DNA from: a virus
Direction: 5' to 3' (one strand)
IMG/VR virus record: IMGVR_UViG_3300046517_002304
Coordinates: 372,001 to 436,000 of that record
Length of the DNA stretch: 64,000 nt
The position numbers were made by a program, and so were the translations under genes. A model generated the notes under the pieces. The model saw nothing but the letters and a program-made list of their open reading frames with translations. It was not told where the DNA came from and ran no database searches. This document shows positions 3,689 through 39,326 of this stretch, piece after piece (the stretch's first letter is position 1; each line of letters starts with the position of its first letter).

Positions 3689-5134
3689 TTAAAGATAGCT
3701 CTTAACTCTTTCTCTGATTTCAGAGAGAGTATATTCTTTAGTTATCTTACCATCGCGGAACACGGTTTCCAGATATCCGCCAGCCGCTTCTTCCTTAGTG
3801 GCGTTATCCTTAGTAAAGAATTGACCATTCTCATCCTTGTCAAGTCGCATCAATCCCTTATGCGATTTTTTCTTGTGGTCTGTAATTGGGTCTTTTTCAA
3901 TATCTCTAGATTCACCATTAACAACAACATTGGTTGCCTTGATGGCAAATCCGAAAGTGTCTCTGGAGTGATTGCGGAGGATACCGCCGACGCCGATAGT
4001 GAGGTTAGATGCGGCATAACCCATGTTCTTGAGACGAGACAGCGTTCGCTCATATCGCTCATAGTACATTCCATCACCGTAAATCAATCCAATTTTAGGA
4101 TTGAGAATTCGGTATCCCTTCTTATTAATAGTGCTGCCAAATTTCATGTCAAGAAGACGGATAGCTCCAAGGAATTCAGGTGTGCCGAACTTGGCTGACG
4201 GATCGCCACAGATAATATATTCTGGATTTCCACTATCGGGACGGAATACAACTTTACCGTCTCTGGAGAGGATGCGTGATTTAAGTTTTTCGGCGAAATC
4301 GGTTAATACAGTCCAGACGTTGTAGGTGTCTGAAACCACGGAACAGATTCCAGTCGGATAAAGATCAAGCATGTGATTAAATGCAGCCAATTCATCTTCT
4401 CTTCCGAAACTACACATTACAGAATGTTCAGATGCATTAGCGCTTAACATAATTGGACTATTTAAATCAGCATTATAATACCTGTTTAAAAAATCAAACG
4501 ATAACATCGTATCACTTCCAAGGTGATTAATCAAATGTGCTCCACCAGAAACATATGCGCTTTCTTCGGTATCGCAACCACGATATCCAAAGTCTACTGC
4601 GGTTAAATCCTTAAGAAAATACATGTCCTCATCAACCGTCTCGTTAAAGTATTGCTCAATTAAAGTTCTATACTTAAAACTATGAGTCGCTACAGTAGTT
4701 AAAAACCAAATCTTAAGCAGCAAGCTTTCCACAAATCCTACTGCCCAATGGAAATCATCTTTTGTATTAGCGACAGTCATTAAGGCATTTCTAATACTTA
4801 TCACAGAGCCTTCTACAGGCGCTTTAATTTCCAAAGGCCAGTAACCTAACTTACACAAATCTCTAATTTTATTTTCAACAGTTCTACTGTTGCTTCCAAG
4901 AATATGTTTTCTAATAAAAAGAAACTCTTCTCCCATTTCTGGAGTAATAGGTTTCACAAGATACTTTTTAAGGTAATACTGAAGACCAAAAAACAATGTC
5001 CTATCCCACAGACGATCATTGTTTCTGGCAGTTAGATAAGAATAAACGTATGATGTTCCTGGGCAATATTGCTCTAGATGACCTGTCTTATAGATGTCAG
5101 TTCTTCGGAGAATGTTCTCTTCAAGTAGTTCCAT
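3689..5134 (-). CDS. Nicotinamide phosphoribosyltransferase family (NAMPT or NARP1 Namat)
   Basis: 481 aa, full length for the family. It transfers nicotinamide onto a ribose-pyrophosphate donor: PRPP giving NMN (NAMPT), or ADP-ribose-pyrophosphate giving NAD+ directly (Namat of the phage NARP1 pathway). Visible landmarks: TDIYKTGHLEQY (near residue 12), DFGYRG (181-186, stacking Phe and phosphate-binding Arg), the equivalent of human Asp219 at 208, the catalytic His in ASEHSV (His237), FRPDSGNP (Arg298, Asp300) and the phosphate-binding GVGG. AAGGAAAA precedes the ATG. A PRPP-synthetase-like gene lies four genes upstream in the same operon with a macro-domain gene between, which favours a NARP1-type pair. 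Substrate choice cannot be read from sequence by eye. Confidence 0.92.
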   Translation of the reverse strand: MELLEENILRRTDIYKTGHLEQYCPGTSYVYSYLTARNNDRLWDRTLFFGLQYYLKKYLVKPITPEMGEEFLFIRKHILGSNSRTVENKIRDLCKLGYWPLEIKAPVEGSVISIRNALMTVANTKDDFHWAVGFVESLLLKIWFLTTVATHSFKYRTLIEQYFNETVDEDMYFLKDLTAVDFGYRGCDTEESAYVSGGAHLINHLGSDTMLSFDFLNRYYNADLNSPIMLSANASEHSVMCSFGREDELAAFNHMLDLYPTGICSVVSDTYNVWTVLTDFAEKLKSRILSRDGKVVFRPDSGNPEYIICGDPSAKFGTPEFLGAIRLLDMKFGSTINKKGYRILNPKIGLIYGDGMYYERYERTLSRLKNMGYAASNLTIGVGGILRNHSRDTFGFAIKATNVVVNGESRDIEKDPITDHKKKSHKGLMRLDKDENGQFFTKDNATKEEAAGGYLETVFRDGKITKEYTLSEIRERVKSYL

Positions 5135-5146
5135 GATTTTTCCTTT

Positions 5147-5962
5147 TTAGGTTAGTGATTCAGCATTATACGGCCACTGCTTCTTATAATACTCTTCTTT
5201 GCTATAATATTTTCCATTAATATAATATTCACAATACCCGTTCATCTGATTTATAAAAGCAGGACCGTCCAAACGATGTAATACTCCATTCCGATACCAC
5301 TGACTAATTTTTCCCTTAAGAACAGCAGGGCCAGCAAGCCTGTGTCGGCGGCCATCAACCCACCACTCCATATCGCTATTCGGATAAATAATAGCAGGTC
5401 CATTTTCCCGATGCAACTGCATCTTGTTATTAGACCAAGTTTGAACTCCGTCAGAATCAACATGAGGAGAAACTATTTTATTAAACTCTTCCTCGGTATA
5501 CCTCTGCCCTCTTACTCCCCATATCTTAGTGCCGTTGGAGATTTCAATAGCTGGACCGTCTAACCGATGCAGCATGTTATTCTGAAACCAATACTTATCT
5601 CCATTGGTGTAAATAATAGCTGGCCCACTTTCGCAGTGAAGATCGCCATTAGCCTTTGTATGGTAAATAGGGTTTTGTAACGGTAGAGCTAATTGCTTCT
5701 TGTATTGCCCCCATTCTTCGTCTCCTGCATAAACATAATCGTAAATTGATGTATCAACTCCATTTTCAAGCCTTTGCTCAACTTTTTTACAAACTTCTGC
5801 GCCTATACTCTCAATCTTTTTCCATGCTTCATCACCTAAAGCATAAGAATCTTTATTAGGCAAAACAACAGGCTGCGCAACTTCCGCCTTCGCTTCATCC
5901 GCTCGGATGAACGGCAAAGCAAAAACAGCAGAGATTGATTTCAGGAAGCTTCTACGGAACAT
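5147..5962 (-). CDS. Exported repeat protein with twin-arginine signal ('HRxDGPA' repeats)
   Basis: 271 aa. It starts MFRRSFLKS followed by a hydrophobic stretch and ADEAKA, a twin-arginine (TAT) type signal peptide with a plausible cleavage site. The body has at least five degenerate repeats of the form (L/Q)HR-x-(D/N)GPA-(I/V)-I-x-x-NG-x-x-x-W-(F/Y)-x-N, related to MORN-like antitoxin or toxin-immunity-like repeats seen in large phages and giant viruses. Overlaps the preceding gene by 11 bases. It sits inside the NAD-salvage cluster. Partner unknown; export is inferred. Confidence 0.7.
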   Translation of the reverse strand: MFRRSFLKSISAVFALPFIRADEAKAEVAQPVVLPNKDSYALGDEAWKKIESIGAEVCKKVEQRLENGVDTSIYDYVYAGDEEWGQYKKQLALPLQNPIYHTKANGDLHCESGPAIIYTNGDKYWFQNNMLHRLDGPAIEISNGTKIWGVRGQRYTEEEFNKIVSPHVDSDGVQTWSNNKMQLHRENGPAIIYPNSDMEWWVDGRRHRLAGPAVLKGKISQWYRNGVLHRLDGPAFINQMNGYCEYYINGKYYSKEEYYKKQWPYNAESLT

Positions 5963-6143
5963 TTTTCTTGACCCTCGGTTTCTTTTCTTCCAGATCGCAA
6001 AGAGCTACCGTCATGTAATCGCCAAATCGGGACTCTACAACAGCTTCATCGCCTTCAATGCGAGTCAGCTTCACGAAATTACCATTGAAGTCATATTCTT
6101 TATTAATTTCATACTTTCTCTTTACTTTTAAATCAAATTTCAT
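5952..6143 (-). CDS. Small beta-rich protein
   Basis: 63 aa, alternating charged and hydrophobic residues with YDFNGNFVKLTRIEGDEAVV in the middle, compatible with an SH3-like or KOW-like barrel. Follows the macro-domain gene by 7 bases. Function unknown. Confidence 0.65.
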   Translation of the reverse strand: MKFDLKVKRKYEINKEYDFNGNFVKLTRIEGDEAVVESRFGDYMTVALCDLEEKKPRVKKNVP

Positions 6144-6150
6144 GATCGGC

Positions 6151-6615
6151 TCACAGATAATAAACAGTTACCGGAATTCCCGCCTTGACCCAACAATCAT
6201 TAATTAGTTCTTTGATAAACTCCCAGTTGCCGCCAGCTAGTCCAGCACCAAATCTCGGGCAAACGATTTCAAATTTCCACGGAAGCCTGGCAACTCCAGT
6301 CATGCAATAAACCAAATGGTTATAATACAAGTCTCGTACATGTGGTCTTTTTCCGCTTAACGTTTGGCCAACCATATGGGCAATCGCTATATTTTTATCA
6401 ACTTGAGTTCTCCATAACTGACCCATCTCAAGACAACCGCTACTTGACCACCCAAGATAATCTTGCTTCGCTTGTGGAAACGACTTAGCCAATGGTAAAA
6501 CAAATCCACTTGCCCACTTGCCTTTATCGTTAACCACATGAGGGATTACAACATGCCCCTTTTCGGTATGCTTTGGCAAATGCTCAAACAAATCGCCTTG
6601 AATTTCATTAAACAT
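6151..6615 (-). CDS. Macro-domain ADP-ribose-binding protein
   Basis: 154 aa, a stand-alone macro domain. Seen: GDLF near residue 7, HVVNDKGKWASGF (the Asn plus small-residue loop that contacts the distal ribose), and CPRFGAGLAGGNWEFIKELI near the C-terminus, matching the family's PRIGCGLGG-x-W motif. Closest in style to TARG1/Appr-1''-phosphatase proteins that bind ADP-ribose or remove it from proteins or nucleic acids. Its place between the Namat-like and Adps-like genes suggests handling of ADP-ribose, the Adps substrate in NARP1, or reversal of host ADP-ribosylation. Role is inference; fold is clear. Confidence 0.88.
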   Translation of the reverse strand: MFNEIQGDLFEHLPKHTEKGHVVIPHVVNDKGKWASGFVLPLAKSFPQAKQDYLGWSSSGCLEMGQLWRTQVDKNIAIAHMVGQTLSGKRPHVRDLYYNHLVYCMTGVARLPWKFEIVCPRFGAGLAGGNWEFIKELINDCWVKAGIPVTVYYL

Positions 6616-6814
6616 TTGGCTTATCCTTTTTGCCTAATTCAAGTGCGCTACTAAGAACCTTTTGCCTTCTCTTACGATAATCATCGCATCCAAACTCCCA
6701 CCCCAATGCCTTTGTCATGCGGGTGCATGTCGGGCATGGTCTATAGCCGTATAGATGGCCGTCAATTGATAATGCCTCAATCGCAAATTGTAATTCTAGT
6801 TTAGGCGTCATCAT
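6608..6814 (-). CDS. Small Cys-containing protein
   Basis: 68 aa with CPTCTRM and a third Cys (EFGCDDY), compatible with a partial metal site or deaminase-like PCxxC turn. Coupled by ATGATGA to the Adps-like gene upstream and overlapping the macro gene by 8 bases. Two ATG codons (6814, 6811) are possible. Function unknown. Confidence 0.65.
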   Translation of the reverse strand: MMTPKLELQFAIEALSIDGHLYGYRPCPTCTRMTKALGWEFGCDDYRKRRQKVLSSALELGKKDKPNV

Positions 6815-7701
6815 ATGACCTTAGTTTGATGAACGAATGGATCAGTAATGTCACAGAATGAATTAGTGGTATAAATCTTATCAAAGTAAAGCTTGAGTTC
6901 GTCCAGTCCCTTGCTGAAAATGCCATGAGGGATACAGAGAAATACTTTTCCGCAGTTCCGCGCCTTAAGAAGCTTGCCGATTTCTGTGAACGTGCGACCG
7001 CCATCACAGATGTCGTCTACAAGGAATACATCCACTTGCTTAAAATCATCACATGAAATTGAAGTATGGGTAATCTTACCAGTAGCAACGTCACGATGCT
7101 TATTACAACTCACCAGGTCCACACAGACAGATCCAAGCTGTTCGGTTGCAGAATACGCTCGCTTCAGCGCACCGCCGTCAGGAGCAATAACTACGACTTT
7201 CTTTAAATTATATTGTTCAACAGCATGCATTCCAATAAACTTCATTTTACGAATAAGAGAACGATTGATTAACGCCGGGGATACATCTGAGTGTTGCTCA
7301 AGTAATTCAACTGAATTATATCCTTGTGCATTGATAATAGGAGCAATTATATCTTTAAAATAACTGGTTCCACCTGAAACAAACTGACGATCAGATCTCG
7401 CTCCAAGCAAATATGGGAGATACAAAGAAATATCAGAACCCGCATGATCATTAGGAGCGAATTCAGTTTCTAAATTCTTAATAGCTGCCGTGGCACAAAG
7501 AATTAGCTCTAAATCTCTAAATGATGTAAACCTTGAAGATATCCTCCAAGAACTTTTTGTAGGGTAAGGAAAACCTTCTTTGCTTCCATGATTTTGAGGG
7601 AGGACAACAACGTCCTGCTGCCCATCGGGAAACTTGATAACTTTGTAATCAACATTATTATCATTGCTCGTTTGATGAGCAAGATTAATTTCTTTTGGCA
7701 T
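6811..7701 (-). CDS. PRPP synthetase family kinase (NARP1 Adps candidate)
   Basis: 296 aa, near the family's usual 310. It transfers pyrophosphate from ATP to a ribose 5-phosphate group; phage Adps uses ADP-ribose to make ADP-ribose-pyrophosphate. Visible: FPDGQ near residue 24, RISSRFTSFRDLE, YLLGARSDRQF (catalytic flexible region, about 97-107), APDGGALKRA (about 173-182) and the PRPP-binding loop VDDICDGGRTF (about 228-238). First gene of a six-gene coupled stretch ending with the Namat/NAMPT-like gene. Conventional PRPP synthesis for NAMPT cannot be excluded. Confidence 0.9.
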   Translation of the reverse strand: MPKEINLAHQTSNDNNVDYKVIKFPDGQQDVVVLPQNHGSKEGFPYPTKSSWRISSRFTSFRDLELILCATAAIKNLETEFAPNDHAGSDISLYLPYLLGARSDRQFVSGGTSYFKDIIAPIINAQGYNSVELLEQHSDVSPALINRSLIRKMKFIGMHAVEQYNLKKVVVIAPDGGALKRAYSATEQLGSVCVDLVSCNKHRDVATGKITHTSISCDDFKQVDVFLVDDICDGGRTFTEIGKLLKARNCGKVFLCIPHGIFSKGLDELKLYFDKIYTTNSFCDITDPFVHQTKVI

Positions 7702-10115: not shown

Positions 10116-10604
10116 TTATCTCAGTAGGAAGTTGCTGACACGGACAAATAACTCATCAAAGCTATTCGCAACCGTCACATCTGGTCGCTCTAATCTCATC
10201 TGATGGAATACATCAAATTTTCTTTTATAATCAGGATGACAACCTACAAATAAATAACGGCTTCTGTCAGTACAGCATTTCCCTAACTCAAATAAGGTAA
10301 TCGGACATAATGTTTCGCCGCAGAACCAAAATAATCTAGCAAAAGAAGTACCGATTCTCTCATACTCCCATTCAATCTGTTTACGCGAAATCTCTGGATC
10401 GTGAATATTCCAATCCGGCCTGCGCGGGTTAATTAAAGATAATTTAAAGTGAGGATTACTCTTATGTTTTTCATCACATGAAGGACTAAGCTTTGAAATG
10501 AATTCGCTTTGCCAATCACCACATCCAGTAATTCCGCCACCTAAGAAAAGGCAACGATGATTCAAGTATTCTTGATCGTTATCGGGTGATGTAAAGACTT
10601 TCAT
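10116..10604 (-). CDS. Nucleoside 2-deoxyribosyltransferase-like protein
   Basis: 162 aa. The order FLGGGITGCGDWQSEF, LINPRRPDW, a KQIEWEYERI helix and LFWFCGETLCPITLFELG follows the small NDT-like fold (GSI..G..W; NP.R.dW; Q..WE...l; i..w......pit.lElG). Members cleave or exchange N-glycosidic bonds of nucleosides; phage versions often lie in nucleotide-salvage loci. The Glu of ITLFELG corresponds to the catalytic-site region. AAGGTGAG precedes the ATG. Could instead bind a nucleotide without cleaving it. Confidence 0.72.
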   Translation of the reverse strand: MKVFTSPDNDQEYLNHRCLFLGGGITGCGDWQSEFISKLSPSCDEKHKSNPHFKLSLINPRRPDWNIHDPEISRKQIEWEYERIGTSFARLFWFCGETLCPITLFELGKCCTDRSRYLFVGCHPDYKRKFDVFHQMRLERPDVTVANSFDELFVRVSNFLLR

Positions 10605-10612
10605 TGCTCACC

Positions 10613-11164
10613 TTATGCTATCAGGGCCTCTTCACATTCGCGGCGGTCATACTCTATACGCTCATATGTCCAGCTACCAAACATCTCTATAATTTCTTCT
10701 CTTCTATTCTTAAACGCAACAAATAAAGAATCGGCCTTATACCAATACTTTAGAGCATAATTTGATGTTTCTTTAACATATCGAAAATCATAGGTGTTCC
10801 GAATACGATCCGCCATTTTAATAACAATCGCCCGGACAGACTTGGTTGCAAAACTAGCGATATATTCTGCTTTTTGTTGTGGAACCGACTTATCACTGCT
10901 CAAATCTGGAATGAATGTAATTTCATTTAAAACTAACATTCCAGTATCCCCTAATATGGTCTTTAATCTAGCCGTATAAATCCCAGGCTTGCTTTCTTCA
11001 ACGTCATGTAGAGGCGATACGCTCAACGTAATTGTATCTGTAACTCCCCACCGGCGAAGCAAAGCTGCGACTTCATAACAATGACTGACATAAGGAATTT
11101 CGCTTCCTGAGCGAAATTCTCCTTCGTGTGCTTCAAAAGCAAGTTTAAATTCTTCTTGTAGCAT
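10613..11164 (-). CDS. HD-domain hydrolase, MESH1/SpoT-like
   Basis: 183 aa from the ATG at 11164 (TAATG with the upstream stop, AGGA seven bases before). The order H13, H28 (PYVSHCYEV), HD53-54 (PLHDVEE) and KMADRIRN (Asp119) matches the metal ligands of small alarmone hydrolases, which cleave the 3'-pyrophosphate of (p)ppGpp or phosphate of NADPH (MESH1). In a phage it could blunt the stringent response. The substrate is inferred from family. Confidence 0.8.
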   Translation of the reverse strand: MLQEEFKLAFEAHEGEFRSGSEIPYVSHCYEVAALLRRWGVTDTITLSVSPLHDVEESKPGIYTARLKTILGDTGMLVLNEITFIPDLSSDKSVPQQKAEYIASFATKSVRAIVIKMADRIRNTYDFRYVKETSNYALKYWYKADSLFVAFKNRREEIIEMFGSWTYERIEYDRRECEEALIA

Positions 11165-11517
11165 TATTGTCCTATCCACACCGCACAACCAGCATAAATA
11201 TCATCATCTGTTCCAAAAATCTTATCAGGACCAGCCGATATGACTTCGCAATGTCTTAGAGCAGAACCATCAAGTTTAATTTTGAAAAAAGTACCCCAAG
11301 GATCATGCTGTTTTAAATCCATAAGAACGCTTTCATTCTTGCCATTAAATGAAAGAGCGATATACTGAGTTAATTCCTTAGTAGCCTCAATCTGCACCTG
11401 TTCCCGTCTTTGCAACTGGATACTAAGACAAACATAAACGCCGGAAAGACCTGCTGTAATAAAAAATGCTGCACCTAAAAGGACACATAACATTTCATGT
11501 TTACCGAGATTCATCAT
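11164..11517 (-). CDS. Membrane-anchored protein with GspG-like C-terminus
   Basis: 117 aa. One N-terminal transmembrane helix (about residues 10-31), then a small extracytoplasmic domain with DPWGTFFKI and SAGPDKIFGTDDDI. The last two motifs are hallmark sequences of the type II secretion major pseudopilin (GspG), where the Asp-rich loop binds calcium. No prepilin peptidase G-xxxx-E site is visible, so it is probably a tethered domain and not a pilin. TAGGAG precedes the two adjacent ATG codons. Confidence 0.7.
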   Translation of the reverse strand: MMNLGKHEMLCVLLGAAFFITAGLSGVYVCLSIQLQRREQVQIEATKELTQYIALSFNGKNESVLMDLKQHDPWGTFFKIKLDGSALRHCEVISAGPDKIFGTDDDIYAGCAVWIGQ

Positions 11518-12071: not shown

Positions 12072-12435
12072 TTTTGACAAACTCTTCGTTTTTTGCATGT
12101 TGTTTTTTAAAAAACTCTTCGTGCTGCTTAATGAAATCTGGATTCGGCAGAAGTTTCTGAATATCTGTCCATTCTGGAGGAACTCCTTTATCTCGCATAT
12201 AGACCATAGTCCCCCAAGCAGCAGCGTGAATTCTAAGCCAAGTTTCTTCAGAATGCTGGTTCCGGATTGACTCTTTTCTGTTATCTGAAATTCCTAGTTG
12301 TCTTGCAGCTTCATGGCAAAGAATGGTCCACGCTGGATTCTCTAACCTACGAACGAGAAATAAACAAATTCCCGGCTTTTCATCCATTAATTTTAAGAAA
12401 GCTTCTCGTTCGGTATAGTGATTAGGGATGGTCAT
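12040..12435 (-). CDS. Hypothetical protein with charged C-terminus
   Basis: 131 aa; soluble helical domain then a Lys/Glu/His-rich tail (KKQHAKNEEFVKNENDKK). ATG overlaps the endonuclease gene's stop by one base. Function unknown. Confidence 0.7.
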   Translation of the reverse strand: MTIPNHYTEREAFLKLMDEKPGICLFLVRRLENPAWTILCHEAARQLGISDNRKESIRNQHSEETWLRIHAAAWGTMVYMRDKGVPPEWTDIQKLLPNPDFIKQHEEFFKKQHAKNEEFVKNENDKKAKTH

Positions 12436-13763
12436 TATACCGAACCACCATTCTTTTGTCCAGCCAGTTTTTCTTGAAAATCTCTCTTGAGTTGCTTAAA
12501 TTTTTCTGGATTGGTTTCGCCGGAATCTCGCAATTGTTCAGCTAACTTACGGATTGTTATGGCGTCTTGTTTGTTTTTGTAATGGCCAAGATTAATATTG
12601 GTATAATATACTTGAATTCTAGAACGCCATAAACCATTCTTATACTCAGATACTCCGCTAAATCCAGAATTATTATTATAAGGTATATCTTGATCCTTTT
12701 TAAGATTTAAATTAAGACATCCCCAATTCTTGCCATTATAAATATCTCCAATTGTTGTAGGCGAAACATTATATTCAGACGCTATTTCTGCAATCGGCCT
12801 TTTGTTAGTCAAATGTTTGGCAATTTCAAGAACTTGGCTCTCGTTCAACAATGATAATGGATGGGTTTCTCCAAACATTTTAATAGGATGAATATAATGA
12901 CTAATATCTACTTTGTATAATACATCTTGCGTTGGTATAAACTCACGAATCATGTCTAAAAAATAAAGATAAGAAGAAGAGCCAATGCGAATAGCAGGAC
13001 ATTCTTTTGTTTTAAATGCACCTTTTTTATGATAAACATTACAATTTGTAATACCCATCTTTTTTAATTTATTGACAAGTATTTCAACTTCCGTAAAACT
13101 AAAACCATCTGTATGAAGTTTGGCATATCGTTGCTCTGAATTGTTTTCGCCATCATCACAAAACCATACGGCAACAATTCTAGGATTAAGCACTAAATTG
13201 TCGGGAACTATTTTAATTCTTCTCCCAATAGCGTTAAAAACATAGGAGTCATGGCCATCTCTTTGGTACCATGCTCGTTCTATGGCTGAAAATAATGGAT
13301 GATTTATTGTATGTATCGTACACGTTCCATTATCATAAATTGCTCTGCCATTTATGAAATGTGGCTTTGCAGCTAAACTTACCATCGTAAATTTTGATGA
13401 AAATGGCATTAAAGCATCAAATTTCCACTTTAAATAGTGTTGTTGTAGTAATCCATGCCTTTCGCAAAAATGAGAATTACAGCTTGTATGCTGTAACTTA
13501 GCACATGTTCCGTCTCCTAACATAGAGCCAGTAAGAATATCTGCTTGCAATTCTGAAAACTTATTAGGAATATCAACATTCTTCCATCTGGCACACTTAA
13601 GCGGTAATATTACACTATTTTCACTATCTCTAATTTTGTTAATTCTACCTAGTAGGTTAGCAAAAGTAATGCCAAAATAATCGGCAGATTGCTGCCTTGT
13701 ATGATTTAAGTAATAACTTGCAAATATTTCGTCACTGATTTCGGCAGATAATGATTTATCCAT
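12435..13763 (-). CDS. LAGLIDADG homing endonuclease with HTH and AP2-like domains
   Basis: 442 aa, freestanding. N-terminal HTH-like segment (QQSADYFGITFANLLGRI), a two-motif LAGLIDADG core (LTGSMLGDG at 77-85 and VAVWFCDDG at 197-205, each with the active-site Asp), then an HTH (IAEIASEYNVSPTTIGDIY) and an AP2-like DNA-binding module near 383-430 (GFSGVSEYKNGLWRSRIQV ... NLGHYK). It would cleave a long DNA site and spread its own locus. No intron or intein border is evident around it, and there is no ribosome site, so it is probably an independently inserted gene. Confidence 0.88.
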   Translation of the reverse strand: MDKSLSAEISDEIFASYYLNHTRQQSADYFGITFANLLGRINKIRDSENSVILPLKCARWKNVDIPNKFSELQADILTGSMLGDGTCAKLQHTSCNSHFCERHGLLQQHYLKWKFDALMPFSSKFTMVSLAAKPHFINGRAIYDNGTCTIHTINHPLFSAIERAWYQRDGHDSYVFNAIGRRIKIVPDNLVLNPRIVAVWFCDDGENNSEQRYAKLHTDGFSFTEVEILVNKLKKMGITNCNVYHKKGAFKTKECPAIRIGSSSYLYFLDMIREFIPTQDVLYKVDISHYIHPIKMFGETHPLSLLNESQVLEIAKHLTNKRPIAEIASEYNVSPTTIGDIYNGKNWGCLNLNLKKDQDIPYNNNSGFSGVSEYKNGLWRSRIQVYYTNINLGHYKNKQDAITIRKLAEQLRDSGETNPEKFKQLKRDFQEKLAGQKNGGSV

Positions 13764-15832: not shown

Positions 15833-16372
15833 TTACACCATAGGTATCAAATATGCGGCAGGAACAGCATCCGTAAGCCAAACATTGTTAGTAGATAAAT
15901 AAAACTTAAAACCATCATCAAACATTCGCTCTGCTTGTACTTCAAAGATAAATACAGCGCCGCCGTGTCTTTTGCCTACAGCAGTAGCGGTTTCGATAGT
16001 TTCAGATAAATGAACATATTGTCTTGATTGCTTTAATAATCCAAGTCTAAAAATAGAGCCAACAGATAGATCACTTGTGCCATGATACAAAACTTCCGGC
16101 GGCTGAATAGCAGTTAACTGTAAATCAACAGGCAAAGAATGGCCTTGCCGCGCCCTAATTTTTGTTCTACTTGCATTTAATTCATAGCGATTTTTAGTAT
16201 CCTTCTCAACGATATGCATCAATAAACTTTGAGATATGCTAGTTTTTTTAACTAACTCTTCGACAAACGCCCATCCATTTTCATCTAGTGTAAGGCCAAC
16301 TTTACCTGGATTATGCCTAAGAATAAGGCACAGGTATTTCCCTAAGCTAGTAGATGATAGTCCTGCTGCCAT
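15833..16372 (-). CDS. kptA: RNA 2'-phosphotransferase (KptA/Tpt1)
   Basis: 179 aa, full family length. It moves a 2'-phosphate from RNA to NAD+, releasing nicotinamide and ADP-ribose 1'',2''-cyclic phosphate. Signature order: GKYLCLILRHNP (Arg19, His20), GWAFVEELV, KIRARQGHS (about 71-79), VLYHGTS, RQYVHLS, VGKRHGGAVF and NNVWLTDAVP. All expected catalytic Arg/His positions are present. Bacterial KptA has no certain natural RNA target; in this phage it could repair 2'-phosphate RNA ends or reverse a defence modification, and it links to the NAD+ theme at 3.7-7.7 kb. AAAGGAAG precedes the ATG. Confidence 0.95.
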   Translation of the reverse strand: MAAGLSSTSLGKYLCLILRHNPGKVGLTLDENGWAFVEELVKKTSISQSLLMHIVEKDTKNRYELNASRTKIRARQGHSLPVDLQLTAIQPPEVLYHGTSDLSVGSIFRLGLLKQSRQYVHLSETIETATAVGKRHGGAVFIFEVQAERMFDDGFKFYLSTNNVWLTDAVPAAYLIPMV

Positions 16373-38342: not shown

Positions 38343-39326
38343 TTATTTCTTGACTTGCATTAATACATAGCCAACTAATAATAAACAAGAAGCACCATAA
38401 AACCAATGATCTAATGATACCACTTCATTGTAAGGCTTCGTTAGATCTAATTCTAAAAATTGATTTGCTATGTTAGTTATCTGACGAGACATGTCCCCCG
38501 ACGATGAATATCGCACATAAGATCCATTTCCTATTGCGGCGATAAATTTGAGTACGCTCTCATCTAGGCTAGAGCGAAGCATGTTTCCTTTGCCATCAAC
38601 GTAGTAGCCCTCAAAAACATTATCTATACGCTTTGTAAGCTTGCAATTATCTGACCCTAGTCCGATGCTGCTGAACACAAAACCAAACTTCTTCAATTCA
38701 CTAATATGTCTTTTAATTTCATCTCGGTCAATAGTCAATCCTTCCTCAAGGCCACCATCAGACAATACAACAACAATGTTCTTACCGCTAGTGATTTTAC
38801 GATTATTAGCAATTTGATGTAATGCAGAGAACGCACTCTCAACCGAAGTTCCTGGGATATCTACTACCTTATAATCCACTTCACGAAGAAGAGTTAAAAA
38901 AGTACTTTTTTTAGTTGTTAAAGGGCAGTATCCAATGTTTGCCGCGCCCGAGAATGGAATCAAACTTGTGGCAGCAACACCGGGTAATTCGATATAAGAT
39001 TTTTCTATTTCCTGCTTTGCGGCAACCAATCGGTTAGGCCGAATATCCTCACACATCTGCATACTTTTGCTAACGTCCAAGAGGAAGAAAAATCGGATAT
39101 CCTTATAGGCATACTTGACGACTTCCCTATAAGGCCCAGCTAGGCCAATGATAGCGCTGCCGATTGCAGCTACCAAAAGTATAACGGCAGTCATTCTGTT
39201 TTTAAAACTAGGCGTATTGCCCAGCAGACTAATCTCGCCGAATCTACGGATTCGCTTTGCGGCGATGAAGATTACTGGGATTAGCACGAAGAGGAAGTAC
39301 AGGTAATTAGGTGATAGAAGGTGCAT
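38343..39326 (-). CDS. vWA membrane protein, BatA/BatB-like
   Basis: 327 aa. Two N-terminal transmembrane helices (about 8-24 and 46-64), a vWA domain, and a C-terminal helix (near 308-325). The MIDAS metal site is complete: DVSKSM (Asp84, Ser86, Ser88), Thr160 (IPGTS) and Asp190 (VLSDGG). BatA and BatB proteins are membrane vWA partners of MoxR ATPases. It lies 5.7 kb downstream of the main MoxR/DUF58/BatA stretch, after RRF and the MKAEV array, and looks like a second copy of the same role. Confidence 0.85.
   Translation of the reverse strand: MHLLSPNYLYFLFVLIPVIFIAAKRIRRFGEISLLGNTPSFKNRMTAVILLVAAIGSAIIGLAGPYREVVKYAYKDIRFFFLLDVSKSMQMCEDIRPNRLVAAKQEIEKSYIELPGVAATSLIPFSGAANIGYCPLTTKKSTFLTLLREVDYKVVDIPGTSVESAFSALHQIANNRKITSGKNIVVVLSDGGLEEGLTIDRDEIKRHISELKKFGFVFSSIGLGSDNCKLTKRIDNVFEGYYVDGKGNMLRSSLDESVLKFIAAIGNGSYVRYSSSGDMSRQITNIANQFLELDLTKPYNEVVSLDHWFYGASCLLLVGYVLMQVKK

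Follow-up and report, generated by a model that had tools for sequence, protein, structure and literature searches.

A candidate operon for NARP1-type recycling of ADP-ribose in a virus record, with a macrodomain gene and a variant transferase

Six tightly packed open reading frames (ORFs), all on the minus strand and all with ATG starts, occupy positions 3689-7701 of the 64,000-nucleotide (nt) stretch of giant-phage DNA analysed here (hereafter the window, i.e., bases 372001-436000 of the 511,233-base virus record IMGVR_UViG_3300046517_002304). On balance, and with modest confidence, we read them as a NARP1-type operon that recycles ADP-ribose (ADPR) into NAD+ by means of a variant transferase. 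The gene order is an Adps-family synthetase resembling phosphoribosyl pyrophosphate (PRPP) synthetases, a protein of 68 amino acids (aa), a macrodomain protein, a 63-aa protein, a repeat protein with a twin-arginine translocation (Tat)-type signal, and a NAMPT-family transferase. A sequence-only reading had placed these same genes here, with the macrodomain protein, the Tat-signal repeat protein and the two small proteins lying between two coupled enzymes whose catalytic motifs were intact, and on all of these points it was confirmed, the Tat motif and the repeats having been read by eye.

The junctions along the run measure, in order, -4, -8, +7, -11 and +12 nt, and we consider it likely that the six coupled genes belong to one operon. 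The run extends past them, however, with 12 nt to the upstream gene and 20 nt to the downstream gene, and similarly small gaps occur in the longer minus-strand run on either side. Because the run continues in both directions and scans for promoters and terminators gave results near noise, the six genes need not be a transcript of their own.

NARP1 is a recently described counter-defence pathway whose transferase, Namat, is recognised through a clamp signature. In its published form (SCH), this clamp signature places aromatics at 392 and 396 within the pattern GSX-phi-X-phi-X-phi-TRD; the double substitution R40A/F392G lowered NAD+ output about 16.6-fold, indicating that the clamp matters for the use of ADP-ribose pyrophosphate (ADPR-PP) (PMC12774641). 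The window transferase (3689..5134, minus strand) is a clear member of the wider family (PF04095, 8e-32; PF18127, 2e-12; phrog_448, 6e-148) and its catalytic core is complete (F189, R192, D215, A242, R306, D308, G360, D361 and the histidine of EHS), but at the clamp it reads GGILRNHSRD, which is one residue shorter than the Namat signature and does not match it.

Comparison of 68 transferase sequences separated three classes cleanly. In class A (Namat), whose partners are almost always Adps-type synthetases, position 392 is aromatic in 43/43 and S391 is present in 42/43. Class B (Nampt) has G, A or L at 392. The window enzyme belongs to a third class, clade C, which has no aromatic at 392 or 396 and the Nampt state at G190, G362 and G391. 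Position 359 groups the classes differently, being Y in every member of A and C (61/61) and Q in class B (7/7). Aromatics specific to clade C occupy 364 (Y/F) and 397 (H/W), each in 17 of its 18 members, and sit beside positions that contact AMP (contacts from PMC12774641). In the transferase tree, bootstrap support is 100 for A, 90 for C without the enzyme of locus L038, and 97 for A and C together, with B outside; clade C is thus sister to Namat, and the Namat clade excludes the window enzyme. Both the missing signature and the tree position rule out that it is a Namat, and it should not be given that name: it belongs to a branch so far undescribed. The claim of a NARP1-like Namat and Adps pair therefore stood for the synthetase and failed for the transferase. 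The fold does not decide the matter, since the predicted structure (mean predicted local distance difference test, pLDDT, 89) is equally near human Nampt (Z 43.0) and Namat (Z 42.7), and whole-fold comparison cannot separate the two.

The synthetase (6811..7701, minus strand, 296 aa; PF00156, 1.5e-11; phrog_619, 3e-59) would tie clade C to the pathway. In a tree with E. coli Prs as the sole housekeeping outgroup, it was placed in the Adps family, among the partners of Namats; neither enzyme of the pair groups with ordinary housekeeping enzymes. The phosphate loops of this family differ from the DTGGT of E. coli, and most read CDGGxTF (DDICDGGRTF in the window), as do those of operon partners in Felixounavirus and mycobacteriophages. 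Exchange of partners would be expected between transferase classes that share a donor, and this is the pattern found: synthetases paired with class A and class C are intermixed, with 9 partner changes; a single clade of C-paired synthetases is rejected (approximately unbiased test, p-AU 0.0015; log-likelihood 132 worse); and the window synthetase groups, with support 0.977, with those of L020 and L060, both paired with clamp-bearing Namats. On the simplest reading, either class of transferase could take the place of the other after the same Adps. The Adps-family enzyme would then pyrophosphorylate ADP-ribose with ATP to give ADPR-PP, from which the clade C transferase, through a differently built adenine pocket, would form NAD+ with nicotinamide in one step.

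Several observations weigh against this interpretation. The clamp aromatics at 392 and 396 are missing, and positions 190, 362 and 391 are Nampt-like as well. NadV of H. ducreyi is Namat-like yet does not have the same aromatics, and no synthetase lies beside it on pNAD1; this enzyme is known to work like an ordinary Nampt. The specificity of the synthetase is judged from the tree and the loop only, and the loop argument is itself drawn from sequence. Finally, a macrodomain gene is missing from L002, L024 and L026, which are close phage relatives within clade C.

These points leave room for canonical salvage, in which ribose 5-phosphate would be converted to PRPP and then to nicotinamide mononucleotide (NMN), a host adenylyltransferase completing NAD+, much as in NARP2 but without an NMNAT encoded by the virus itself. 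Because every clamp position of the window transferase is Nampt-like, and because NadV suggests that the clamp can be lost in this family, leaving an enzyme that uses PRPP, we keep this PRPP-dependent route as a real, if somewhat doubtful, contender; as far as the sequence shows, the substrate may be ADPR-PP or PRPP. Gene content argues the other way. Of the class B phage members, 3/5 adjoin an NMNAT gene and all are without a synthetase in the vicinity, whereas a synthetase is present at every clade C locus not cut by a contig end, and the one in the window belongs to the Adps family. No credible NMNAT was found at clade C loci; the BLAST labels reading 'NMNAT' at L007, L094 and similar loci belong to NrtR/Nudix-like proteins. 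The virus record likewise yielded no NMNAT, its sole PF01467 match being HldE-like, though the record may be incomplete.

Under ADP-ribose recycling, the macrodomain (6151..6615, minus strand, 154 aa) would supply Adps by freeing ADP-ribose from conjugates or 1''-derivatives, the candidate substrates being ADP-ribosylated DNA or protein, or ADPR-1''-phosphate. That a macrodomain would suit an extended pathway had been suggested from the sequence alone, and the same idea had earlier been put forward for Pseudomonas phage Adele (PMC12846349). The idea is thus not new; what the present analysis adds is a survey with its statistics. Among 45 viral contigs with the pathway, searched with the outside family phrog_335, we found 18 macrodomain genes, 16 of which are no more than 6 kb from the NAMPT gene, as against 3.3 expected under random placement and a maximum of 11 in 20,000 draws. 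With an orthologous group removed, 9/11 are near the NAMPT gene (1.4 expected). Vibrio phage phi 3, L056 and L057 (class A), L027 (class C) and the window all have a macrodomain gene placed between the two enzyme genes, and these intervening genes belong to different subfamilies. More generally, a macrodomain or NADAR gene adjoins such pairs in many phages and some bacteria, directly following the pair in the microbial loci L136, L153, L165 and L121. The link between macrodomain and pathway is therefore real beyond the window phage, and a role in the pathway is plausible, the substrate remaining a matter of inference. A tested precedent for an ADPR-releasing enzyme in a NARP1 operon is RyDEP (PMC13232231).

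The Pfam Macro profile misses the window protein, which was recognised through phrog_335 (3e-15) and the structures of SCO6735 and BT1257 (about 1e-17). Its AlphaFold model (pLDDT 91) is nearest BT1257 (Z 24.9), followed by SCO6735 (21.9), TARG1 (19.8), Poa1p (19.5) and then DarG; on this modelled fold it is an ALC1/TARG1-like macrodomain of the SCO6735 type, with BT1257 and SCO6735 as the closest solved structures. The macro protein alone led to no close phage relatives in viral contigs. In Streptomyces phage Annadreamy (L018:3324-4468), a Sir2-family gene abuts a relative of the window macrodomain; a toxin-antitoxin role has been predicted for Sir2/macrodomain pairs in Streptomyces phages (PMC9503650).

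The kinship with SCO6735 bears on a further explanation, namely that the macrodomain stands outside salvage as an independent anti-defence hydrolase, removing ADP-ribose placed on phage DNA by a DarT-type attack, and owes its position here to the clustering of counter-defence genes. SCO6735, the closest characterised relative, cleaves thymidine-ADP-ribose and acts as a DarT antitoxin (PMC9411070); its residues H24, N27 and Q85 are kept in the window protein, and a NADAR gene is present about 5.6 kb past the NAMPT gene. However, the window protein has not kept K34 and K89, the substrate-contacting lysines that SCO6735 requires to act on DNA, and several macrodomain subfamilies recur beside Adps/NAMPT pairs, some overlapping them. 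We regard a role wholly apart from salvage as unlikely, and the two roles are in any case compatible with each other.

The source of ADP-ribose may be broader than host defence. A Tpt1/KptA RNA 2'-phosphotransferase gene (15833..16372, minus strand; PF01885, 5e-41) lies outside the six-gene cluster, 8 kb before the synthetase and in the same direction of transcription. Because enzymes of the KptA family consume NAD+ and yield ADP-ribose phosphate, the source need not be host defences alone, and ADP-ribose might originate in the KptA-type RNA repair of the virus itself as well as in host defences that work as NADases or by ADP-ribosylation. An RNA ligase gene (PF09414, 2.5e-8; L177:6160-7059, minus strand) lies on the same strand some 9 kb past the NAMPT gene and is perhaps, like KptA, part of an RNA repair set. 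Taken further, the operon might mainly recycle NAD+ spent on viral RNA repair, with KptA yielding an ADP-ribose cyclic phosphate, the macrodomain dephosphorylating ADPR-1''-phosphate, and the two enzymes rebuilding NAD+. The fold of the macrodomain is near that of the ADPR-1''-phosphatase Poa1p, but nearer those of BT1257 and SCO6735; a search for the 2H phosphodiesterase needed for the cyclic intermediate found none; and no KptA occurs around the relatives, within the roughly 6 kb searched on each side (i.e., not whole contigs). We hold it to be quite improbable that such recycling is the main function.

Clade C occurs both in uncultured phages and on chromosomes of Sphingobacteriaceae. Deposited phages contain no relative of the window transferase above about 41% identity, and no relatives of the virus at the DNA level were found among them; uncultured viral contigs contain relatives at 44-61%, and Pedobacter, Mucilaginibacter and a Sphingobacteriales metagenome-assembled genome contain relatives at 64-66%, several of them on long chromosomal contigs. 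Because the bacterial relatives are of these groups, the sequences suggest, but do not prove, that the host of the virus is one of the Bacteroidota. A VWA-domain protein (window 38343-39326, minus strand; PF13519, 5e-11), by eye like BatA/BatB of Bacteroidota, may also hint at the host. Besides the genes of the transferase and its synthetase, bacterial clade C loci carry one for an NrtR-type regulator, a family described by NCBIfam as ADPR-responsive repressors. In Pedobacter sp. MC2016-24 (L094:4316-8541), the order is NrtR, synthetase, clade C NAMPT, NADAR and Macro, making this run a candidate for bacterial ADP-ribose recycling.

With its Adps partner retained and its clamp absent, the clade sister to Namat either widens the NARP1 pathway or shows ordinary salvage to be open to Adps-type enzymes. 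Release of ADP-ribose may be a standard input step, as the repeated presence of a macrodomain or NADAR gene beside the pair suggests; if so, counter-defence against ADP-ribosylation would be linked with NAD+ repair. Tentatively, and well short of an even expectation, clade C may represent a second, separately built nicotinamide transferase that uses ADPR-PP, a clamp of Y/F364 and H/W397 replacing F392 and Y396, while phages and Bacteroidota would use a general operon for recycling ADP-ribose, in which an enzyme that releases it (macrodomain, NADAR or RyDEP) is a standard third part.

The remaining members of the cluster are less readily interpreted. The 68-aa protein (6608..6814, minus strand) contains a CPTC motif, and its gene overlaps both neighbours; neither it nor the 63-aa protein (5952..6143, minus strand) has a family match. 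The 271-aa protein (5147..5962, minus strand) has the Tat-type signal RRSFLK and LHRxDGPA repeats; Agrobacterium phage Atu_ph07 and Celeribacter phage P12053L are the only deposited phages with similar repeats. It is putatively exported yet encoded within a cluster of NAD+ genes, for which we offer no explanation.

In the wider surroundings, the NADAR-domain gene (PF08719, 2e-13; L177:9548-10069, minus strand, record 369548-370069) lies about 2 kb outside the window start and is followed by a gene for an MGS-like protein (L177:9183-9650). Neighbouring genes at window 10116-11188 (minus strand) encode nucleoside 2-deoxyribosyltransferase-like (PF15891) and HD_4-domain proteins, and a LAGLIDADG homing-endonuclease-like ORF occupies 12435-13763 (minus strand; PF03161, 3.6e-22). 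PADLOC gave a weak local match to PsyrT only (4e-6), and a search for RyDEP gave no match, though its control also matched nowhere.

Among known systems, the cluster most resembles NARP1 as it occurs in the Bacillus phage SPbetaL1, Bas63 and mycobacteriophage DyoEdafos, in that an Adps-family synthetase and a NAMPT-fold transferase with a conserved core are clustered and no NMNAT gene adjoins them. It differs from these in that the transferase has no GSX(F/Y)..Y..TRD clamp and falls outside the Namat clade, and in that four genes, including that of the macrodomain, separate the two enzymes. With NARP2 and the KVP40-type combination of Nampt and NMNAT, it shares the state of the clamp positions, but it has an Adps-type synthetase and, as noted above, no NMNAT was found in the operon or elsewhere in the record, and membership in that group was rejected. 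SCO6735 and BT1257, the closest solved structures to the macrodomain, are about 32% identical to it. In the DyoEdafos operon, an accessory enzyme likewise produces ADP-ribose for Adps (PMC13232231), although RyDEP, a glycosidase with a ryanodine-receptor domain, acts on cyclic ADPR, and the accessory protein of the window is a macrodomain. Adele also has a macrodomain gene (PaAdele_020) near genes for Adps and a NAMPT-family protein, with the same proposal of ADP-ribose supply (PMC12846349); there the gene is downstream, its product is called Poa1p-like and the transferase is a Namat, whereas in the window the gene lies between the enzymes, its product is SCO6735/BT1257-like and the transferase is of clade C. 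The operons of Pedobacter are chromosomal and carry an NrtR regulator gene not seen in the phage cluster, but they share with it a synthetase beside a clade C transferase, 64-66% identical to that of the window, and in one genome these are followed by NADAR and Macro.

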